DNA from: Branchiostoma floridae
Lineage: Eukaryota > Chordata > Leptocardii > Amphioxiformes > Branchiostomatidae
DNA length: 64,000 nt
Direction: 5' to 3'
Assembly (NCBI RefSeq): GCF_000003815.2
Contig: NW_023365735.1
Location: forward strand, 35,171-99,170
Positions within the stretch are counted from its first letter, which is position 1. Each line of letters starts with the position of its first letter. Positions 18,501-31,607 of the stretch are shown piece by piece. The translations under genes and the position numbers were made by a program. Under the pieces are notes generated by a model. The model was not told the DNA's origin. It was given only the letters and a program-made list of their open reading frames with translations, and ran no database searches.

Positions 18501-21500
18501 GCCAGGCTCCGGTTTGAAATGTGACGTATGTAGGCCTTATTAGGGCTCCCATGCTCTTCCCTAAGTAACCAAGTAAAGTATGGACAGCCTTGTTCACTGT
18601 ATGGACCCTTCTACTGCTTCTGGGAGAAGATGTTAGGCACACCTGACTGCAGCAAAGGGTCGTAGGTGCCAGGTAACCTATGTCGCCCCCCGTCTTTGCT
18701 CAGTTTTTGGTTTTAAGTCTTAACAATGTGTGTGTGTCCTGAACAGGTGATGCGTGAGAAGGAAAAGCTCCAGGCGGAGCACAGCAAGGCTCTCCTGGCC
18801 AGGAGCAAACTGGAGAGTCTCTGCAGAGAGCTGCAGAGGCACAACAAAGCCATCAAGGTACACACATACACGTGACATCAGCTAATCATGTGCACAAACT
18901 CTGCACAGAGCTGCAGAGGCACAACAAAGCCATCAAGCTATACACATATGCATGACGATGTATAAAGTTCACAGTGAAAGATTCCAAAGAAGTGTTTGGT
19001 AGTTTCACAATGATAGTGGCCGCATTTACATGTAGGAAAATCAATACAAAAGTGTTGAAAATTCATATTAAATGATAGTTTAACTGACTGAGGTTTAGAC
19101 GGAGCCTTGTAAGATGAATTGGAAGCGTCTTAGGCATGAAAGAATGGGAGTGCTTGTTGGTTTGTTGAATAGTGAGTCCACCCCCTTTTAAAAATGTTGT
19201 TGCCTCATTGTTCCCCCTGCAGGAAGAGTCTCAAAGGAAGATGAAGGAAGAAGAAGAGAAAAGAAGGGAGATCTCCTCAAAGTTCCAGGTAAGGAACTTT
19301 GCACCATCATTGGAAGATGCATGACAGAAATTCCCTTGTATTTTCTCAAAAAACAGACCTCAGCTTCCAAGTGTCTGTATCTAGATACTTTATCCCTGTG
19401 GTTAAGGATTTCGTGTTTATGCTTTCATCCCTTTGATTTAAGTTTTTTTGTGTTTAAAAATTGTTTTTATCTTGAAAATTTTCTGTTTGAGAAATGAAAT
19501 TCCATGAACATGATTGATTTTTTGTGCTTACTTCTCTTGTGAGGTCTTGTCAGTAACATACAATGTGTTAACAAAATTTTGGCATGTCTTGATACAATCA
19601 TTGTTCAATTTTAGAGTATACTCTAGTAGCAGTAGTTATTTTGAGCTGTTGTTTCTATGTTTCCATCCACTACTTTTTCTCATGTTATTGTGTACATCTC
19701 CTGTGGTGGGCTTTTGTGCAATTTTTGTTCTACTTTTGTGTACATTGTTTGATGATTGTTCTCCACCTTTTCTAACTTACTTTTCTTTCCTCCTCATCTT
19801 CTTTCTATATATTTTATTCTATTTCTACTGCATATTGCTTCATATATGAGCTACGGGACTGATGGATGGATGGATTACTTCATAGTTTTTTACCTGTACT
19901 TGTACATTGCTTTGCCATGACCTGATCACCAATGTTTTCATGTATTTGCTTTTATCTTTACATACCTTTCTCTTATGATATCTTTTCTCAGAATCCTGCT
20001 TTTCTTCTGGACATTTTTCTGTAAGCTTGAAGACCTCTAAATCATTCTTCTACTCACAGCTTAGTTTATTTTCCTACTACATGTAGTTAGTTTGTAACTT
20101 ATGAAATAGATTCATGCACTTGTATTGTGTAACTTAGAGTACCTTCTCAAGCGTGTTATATGAATATTAGCCGTTACTTTTTTGGACAAAAGTTCAAATT
20201 TAGCAAGACACAACAAGTAATTTTCAAATTCCAAAAACGTAACATTCTAGGAGAAGGTAATGAAATGGAAATGCAATTCATTCCAGACGACCCTTGGTGA
20301 GATCAAATGCATTTCCATTTCTGTATTGGTTTGGTTGTACTGCCAGGGCTACCCAACTGGGCTGTGGCTATTAACGTTAGTTCTCCTTTATCCGTGGAGA
20401 AACCTACATCCGACGGACGGTTCTTTCAAACTGCAGTATTTTGAAAATATTGCCGTTTGAAACTACAGTCAGTCGACTTAAAATCCTTAAATACCCTGTT
20501 TATATAAACAACGGATATAGGTTTCCCTACGGATAAAGGTGAACCAGCAATACAGGTCTTGCCCTGCTGACAGAGAAAAATACAATTTTCTACTGAATAT
20601 TTTGAAGTACATAAAAACTATTGCCCAATATCTATATGAATGGTCTCCTTCCAGACGACCCTTGGTGAGATCAGCACACAGATGGACGACAACAGGGACA
20701 GGAGCCTGAAGATGAAGGAGGAGAACATGGAGCTGTGTGGGAAACTCAAGAGTCTGGTCGAGCAATACGAGAAGAGAGAGGAGGTAGTGAAGGGCCTCTG
20801 TTCTAGACTAGGGTTTGAGGGCAGGTAGTTGATCTTGAATTCATCTTTTACGTTACAGGGCTCATTCTGTATTACAAAAGCTGATGACTCCAGTTGGCTC
20901 AGTTCAAGAGGAGAGAAACCAAGACAAACCAGCCACCAAACTGCTCCTTTGGTTTCCAGAAGCCAATAGGAGAGGAGGCTGTCCATACTTTCCAGTATGA
21001 TGATGAAGAGAAGTTTATTTTACAGAAGTCATCAGGTGAGCAGTTGAAGCAAATGGAATGATAAAAACCTATTTTTTCCTGTTGACAAAAGTACTCACAT
21101 TTGTACAAAATCTTTTCTTCTGCAGGTCCTTTTGAAGGATATCAATGGACATCTGCTCTTGCAAAAGTGGCCAGGTGTGCAGTTCAGGAAGATGGAGTGA
21201 TAAATACCTCTCCTTTCCTGTTCACAAATGTTCTAACATCTGTGGACAATCTTTTCTTTTGAAGGATATCAACTTATAGAAGTGGTCAGGTGAGCAGTTG
21301 AAGAAGACAGAGAGTGAGAAATACCTTAAGTTTGAAAATACCTTCTTGAAAAAAGTTCTCACACCTGTAGGCAATCTTCTCTTCCGTAGGTCCTTCTGAA
21401 GGAAGCAGATGAACATCAGTCGTGAGAAGAGCAGCCTCCTGAGGACTTCATGAAGAGCAACTTTATAGAAGAAGACAGAGGAAGACACTTTTTGAACGGC

Positions 21501-31607: not shown

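Follow-up and report, generated by a model that had tools for sequence, protein, structure and literature searches.

Copied exon borders in an amphioxus taxilin gene are probable mirages and look like leftovers of frequent short tandem duplication

The taxilin gene of the amphioxus Branchiostoma floridae, analysed here within a stretch of 64 kb (the window; C177:35171-99170 of a 513-Mb assembly), carries local copies of its own exon borders at eight of 31 splice borders, four of them donors (of the exons ending at 18857, 23637, 25868 and 27539) and four acceptors (of the exons starting at 20655, 21559, 27377 and 31195). These border copies are amphioxus mirages, a phenomenon already published for other genes. 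It is highly probable, in our judgement, that they are short tandem duplications which happened to include one exon border, are tolerated and decay neutrally, taxilin being a gene that was hit unusually often. The taxilin copies look like harmless leftovers of very frequent short duplication and not like exon-making machinery. A preliminary description of this DNA had seen in them what looks like a mechanism supplying raw material for exon duplication; a mechanism aimed at exon borders was not supported. No second complete exon is formed by any of the taxilin copies, and the genome sample described below has no excess at borders once exons are masked.

Fifteen coding exons of the taxilin gene (11849-31607, forward strand) join at GT/AG sites into a single open frame of 608 amino acids to the stop, and the predicted protein matches the Pfam family Taxilin (PF09728) with an E value of 2.3e-99 and 332.9 bits (cut-off 30.3). 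The working splice sites referred to throughout are those predicted from this open frame. The total rises to 16 exons if a possible alternative exon at 28368-28576 is included, in which a 24-bp tandem repeat codes for a repeated Gln/Lys/Thr-rich peptide; a 5' start exon was not found in the sequence. The last exon (31195-31607) has at its start an overlapping second frame, which codes for a Pro/Gln-rich peptide and ends in TGA. The window also holds a headcase gene (HECA) of two exons on the reverse strand (Pfam HECA_N 8.5e-48, Headcase 3.1e-76), a BSD-domain gene on the reverse strand (Pfam BSD 2.2e-07), which by comparison with the human sequence we take to be SYAP1-like, and a ribosomal protein S4 gene (RPS4) on the forward strand (Pfam Ribosomal_S4e 5.7e-21). 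The SYAP1-like gene has possible 15-bp microexons at 54246-54260 and 47526-47540, with which its frame stays open. An open frame at 6930-7763 on the reverse strand matches GIY-YIG weakly (E 0.00019; 22.1 bits, cut-off 22.6) and probably belongs, at a guess, to a retroelement.

Self-comparison of the window recovered all seven border-spanning arrays that the preliminary description had named, each with a self-BLAST E value below 1e-4 (the weakest, D2, at 3.3e-5), while its inventory had overlooked a short head copy (H1) and a purely intronic tandem duplication of 165 bp at 21775-22108; all of these lie on the forward strand. Among the donors, array D1 (18819-18948) consists of the tail of exon 18747-18857 and one copy in which the donor gt has become ct; the pair 18819-18868 and 18899-18948 has an offset of 80 and an identity of 94%, and was recovered by only one of two self-comparison settings and not by the uniform setting used later. 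Array D2 (23612-23813) holds one copy of the tail of exon 23518-23637 with its GT kept (23612-23670 and 23755-23813, offset 143), and array D3 (25824-26653) holds three dead copies of the tail of exon 25773-25868, all with GT, which with the working one makes four copies at spacings of 226, 243 and 237. The two dead copies in array D4 (27507-27962), from the tail of exon 27377-27539, have GT in neither, one donor being deleted and the other gc; the tails lie at 27507, 27641 and 27771. Downstream of taxilin is a hairpin-like element (33069-33266, the hairpin read by eye), and its first arm, 33069-33151, is similar to the D4 flank at 27879-27959.

Among the acceptors, the head of exon 21559-21687 recurs three times as a dead copy in array H2 (21020-21622), at 21126, near 21263 and at 21390 (spacings about 137, 127 and 169), and two of the three have AG. 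Array H3 (27063-27440) contains two dead heads of exon 27377-27539, both with AG, the heads at 27123, 27250 and 27377 being spaced by 127, and array H4 (30653-31232) two dead heads of the last exon, again with AG, the heads lying at 30812, 31006 and 31195. Exon 27377-27539 is confirmed to lie between two arrays made from itself, of heads to the left and of tails to the right; a single full match to this exon turns up in the 513-Mb assembly, apart from the two local head copies. The remaining copy, H1 (20278-20305), is a 28-bp head of exon 20655-20783 with AG kept, identical to 20646-20673 at 27 of 28 bases (E 0.005). At a distance of 368 bp, this short copy does not form a clean tandem unit, and it is perhaps a templated insertion. 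Unlike the other arrays, H1 is enclosed as a loop by the two arms of a perfect inverted repeat of 14 bp (20261-20320).

Since tandem duplication leaves the exon whole, the site that works is the donor furthest upstream in each tail array and the acceptor furthest downstream in each head array; in all eight arrays, four head and four tail, the functional exon does stay whole, with its frame open through the predicted sites. Taxilin does hold one pair of whole-exon twins, twin A (20655-20783) and twin B (21559-21687), both of 129 bp on the forward strand, of which A is the better Pfam match. The match to Taxilin is continuous when one twin is used (324.4 or 308.9 bits) and falls into two stretches when both are, from which we infer that the twins are probably mutually exclusive. 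Both code for one and the same portion of the coiled coil of taxilin, and the H2 head copies resemble twin B. An origin of the twins from the present arrays is not supported: only 16 of 43 residues (68 of 129 bases) are identical between them, and the self-comparison lists no direct repeat that joins them.

Fifteen dead copies can be counted in taxilin. The earlier statement that each retains one intact splice site stands for 11, in which AG or GT is kept, and fails for four, which have lost it at 18938 (gt to ct), 21263, 27669 and 27804 (gt to gc); gc donors can in rare cases function. Many of the retained sites score like the working ones: the dead donors of D3 score 6.2, 6.2 and 7.0 against 7.0 at the working donor, that of D2 5.4 against 6.8, the dead acceptors of H3 5.4 and 6.6 against 6.1, those of H4 equal their working site, and the acceptor of the first H2 copy reaches 9.3 against 2.9. 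Some use is therefore conceivable, and occasional splicing at copied sites is possible on these scores.

The retained sites would also fit a reading in which the copies are kept for function, as spare splice sites or as decoy exons that tune splicing or yield poison transcripts. The pattern of decay argues against it. Between dead copies, 282 of 339 bases of the exon part (83.2%) and 756 of 915 of the intron part (82.6%) are identical (P 0.87), whereas between working exons and dead copies the figures are 514 of 572 (89.9%) and 1128 of 1339 (84.2%; P 0.001), all of them taken over seven of the eight arrays (the 28-bp H1 omitted), with gaps uncounted, limits set by hand and non-independent pairs. 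That the exon part is the closer one only in comparisons with the working exon is the expected pattern if only the working exon is constrained. Among the dead copies the two parts have decayed equally, which gives no sign of upkeep as exons, and selected pseudo-exons were rejected for this reason. Four of the 15 sites are lost, the frame of both dead H3 copies meets a TAA after 21 codons, and two of the three dead D3 copies contain a stop or a shifted frame. Retention for function is on this evidence very unlikely. Still less credence can be given to an artefact of assembly, through the mis-joining of haplotypes or reads, which we regard as extremely unlikely. Amphioxus is very heterozygous, which would favour such errors. 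One published globin mirage was indeed mis-assembled in the draft genome, according to the part of PMC3087553 at hand. Against this, the parts of the taxilin copies are 68-97% identical, that is, they differ by 3-32%, and from 8157 to 52853 the window is free of N, so that a doubling of haplotypes or in assembly is unlikely and was rejected; copies of the same kind lie on other contigs, and re-sequencing of PGBD5 is supportive in the available text of PMC3902484. As to a transposon origin, the one likeness seen was that of the D4 flank to the hairpin-like element.

Within taxilin eight of ten local duplications cross an exon border against 1.1 expected, and none of 5000 random placements reached eight (placements that fell within an exon or covered one entirely were forbidden, and each array of a hand-made list was treated as one unit); for the other three genes of the window the figure is two of six against 0.7 (P 0.16). 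Such unmasked counts are subject to a detection effect, in that an old copy can still be recognised when the exon it came from is conserved, and the taxilin P values are too favourable, because the gene was noticed for its border copies. When exons were masked before detection, four of seven taxilin duplications touched an exon edge within 12 bases (1.3 expected, P 0.024) and three of seven within 3 bases (1.1 expected, P 0.09); a less fair count, which uses the known continuation of the arrays into the exons and again a hand-made list, gives five of seven against 1.0 (P 0.001). The other three genes, masked, give one or two of six against 0.9-1.0. Per position, 7 of 31 taxilin borders lie in a duplication (22.6%; not eight, since the border at 18858 is missed by the uniform detection setting), compared with 17.5% of the intron positions of the gene and 26.3% of those within 18.7-31.6 kb. 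Taxilin is a hotspot of border-spanning duplication that partly outlasts exon masking. The density above chance claimed earlier was reproduced in this gene, at a smaller size after masking, and had no counterpart in the genome sample once exons were masked there too.

Elsewhere in the window border copies were found at two of 31 borders. The HECA array (39618-39868, reverse strand) belongs to the last headcase exon, at its acceptor (39627), and the RPS4 array (60959-61249, forward strand) at the acceptor (61215) of an RPS4 exon, with a head copy from 61088; in addition, the SYAP1-like gene has a weak, decayed copy (49327-49361, reverse strand) of the tail of exon 49426-49582, with GT kept and a score of 25 against a maximum of 14 in 300 shuffles. 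Twenty arbitrarily placed 10-kb stretches from 19 large contigs (about 175 kb without N) contained 30 local duplication clusters, which is 1.7 per 10 kb with 8.8% covered, compared with 2.7 clusters per 10 kb in the window. In one of them (L022) an exon tail is copied 105 bp downstream with its GT and is genuine on reading; the exon is carrier-like, its family judged by eye, and this is the one case read of three in the random stretches. Nine multi-exon chaperonin (TCP-1) loci, 75.8 kb in all, were picked regardless of repeats, the remaining matches being set aside. They contained 14 clusters, and on reading four of these span a border (a donor in L026, a donor and an acceptor in L027, an acceptor in L033) against 1.7 expected (P 0.08, from a hand-made list of units), which places border copies in three of the nine genes. 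The share of copied borders is higher in taxilin, at 8/31 against 4/108 profile-defined edges in the chaperonin loci (Fisher P 0.0007), or 7/31 if one uniform setting is applied (Fisher P 0.0025); the setting that recovers D1, run on the chaperonin loci, finds one of their four borders and adds none. A further pair in L026 (6183/6553) was rejected as a border case, since it flanks a whole exon and by eye resembles a dispersed repeat near 16.1 kb of the window.

A simple exon predictor, trained on known and profile-defined exons, made 31 predictions in the window at threshold 16, of which 20 were exact and 25 overlapped known exons. At threshold 18, a duplication contained 3 of the 74 borders predicted in the random stretches, where 6.7% of non-exonic positions lie in one, and 5 of the 142 predicted in the chaperonin loci, where 8.5% do (8 of 216 borders together). 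Raising the threshold to 24 left 1 of 34 borders in the random stretches, compared with 6.7% of positions, and 3 of 100 in the chaperonin loci, compared with 8.3%. Among the five chaperonin borders, two (L026 3396-3509 and L031 4012-4138) are at long minisatellites and probably belong to false exons, and the L033 border is absent from the list of the predictor. Counted as unmasked events, the random stretches had 3 border cases among 30 duplications where 1.1 would be expected (P 0.09), and the chaperonin loci had 5 among 14 where 2.2 would be (P 0.04). With exons masked, the random stretches were left with 1 case among 29 (1.0 expected) and the chaperonin loci with 2 among 11 (1.8 expected). 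With profile-defined exons the masked chaperonin count was 1 or 2 of 11 against 1.8-2.0, and this count scores the L026 pair 6183/6553 as touching at tolerances of 12 and 20. Border copies thus occur across the genome, and this small sample, most of whose exons are predicted, shows no preference of local duplications for borders beyond detection bias. A high background rate without over-represented borders is the outcome that the preliminary description had named as refuting its reading. Elsewhere in the assembly, dense clusters of matches to myosin-head exons were seen at C9:6373761-6605930 and C5:18087765-18184506, which suggests tandem arrays of myosin genes, as judged by sequence matches.

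These counts bear on a further explanation, in which tandem duplication would be provoked at exon-intron junctions, at least in some genes, by a step in composition or by splicing-linked DNA:RNA hybrids or breaks, and would so feed exon duplication. The eight of ten duplications that span a border in taxilin, with an excess partly left after masking, speak for it, as does the unmasked chaperonin count, two of whose five cases are the probably false exons. Masking, however, leaves no excess in the random stretches, the chaperonin loci or the other genes of the window, and per position the borders are not clearly above the introns even in taxilin. We therefore consider border-targeted mutation of this kind improbable. 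Also unlikely, in our estimation, is that taxilin belongs to a subset of genes in which some gene property really concentrates duplication on borders, one example being high germline transcription accompanied by junction-linked breaks.

The background for reading the taxilin copies as mirages comes from two papers, cited here from the portions of their text available to us. PMC3087553 describes mirages in the amphioxus genes BflGb6 and BflGb9, cites Adh3 and other loci, and holds that mirages are possibly a more general phenomenon; PMC3902484 adds those of PGBD5, where re-sequencing backed the repeats at splice sites, and cites troponin C. As in these genes, the units in taxilin span the exon-intron border, and copies lie on either side of exons, many with intact AG or GT. 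Published mirages, in the text available, affect one or two borders per gene, unlike the eight of taxilin. Their units measure 10-72, 60, 108 and 150-160 bp, a range into which the taxilin spacings of 80-169 bp fit, those of D3 and H4 (189-243 bp) being longer, and the globin copies are 81-100% identical (PMC3087553, PMC3902484), the taxilin copies being more diverged overall. A further trait of mirages is a copy number that varies between haplotypes or somatically; the taxilin arrays are seen here in one haplotype. In the Rogers model of intron gain through tandem duplication of AG/GT proto-splice sites (cited in PMC3087553) splice sites are copied as they are here, but no new intron or exon is evident in taxilin and its predicted coding sequence is unchanged. 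The whole-exon twin 20655/21559 recalls tandem exon duplication and mutually exclusive exons; it is much more diverged than the array copies, and the self-comparison lists no direct repeat joining twins and arrays. That the copies serve as raw material is possible in principle, and PMC3087553, in its available part, already proposes mirages as a source of new introns. Our literature search, which covered result listings and the starts of abstracts, found no genome-wide count of mirages, and among the matches listed with taxilin as one search term there was no mention of taxilin.

Taken as mirages, the taxilin arrays would have arisen by tandem duplication at spacings of about 80-240 bp, through slippage or the microhomology-mediated repair of small breaks, with duplications that span a border arising like any other local duplication in the genome and unequal exchange later altering the number of copies in an array. 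A border-spanning copy would be tolerated because the true exon is left whole, the complete exon retaining the upstream donor or the downstream acceptor. Under exon definition, a half-exon with a single splice site should be ignored, and a partial exon would not be recognised because it has one splice site only. Splicing would thus pass over the copies, as suggested for the globins and Adh3, where RT-PCR of the globins and the Adh3 data point to regular splicing despite mirages (PMC3087553, in its available part), and the copies would then decay neutrally.

Mirages, which in the available parts of the literature were published gene by gene, prove easy to find: three of nine chaperonin genes have them, as do HECA, RPS4 and, weakly, SYAP1, and among the 20 random stretches at least one does. 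In our small test of border preference the slight excess vanishes when exons are masked, as would be expected if a conserved exon eases the recognition of old border copies, and claims that such repeats create exons or introns should mask exons first. Should the gene property considered above be real after all, mirage-rich genes would form a class of mutational hotspot. Taxilin, for its part, offers a good single locus for asking whether spare splice sites get used.
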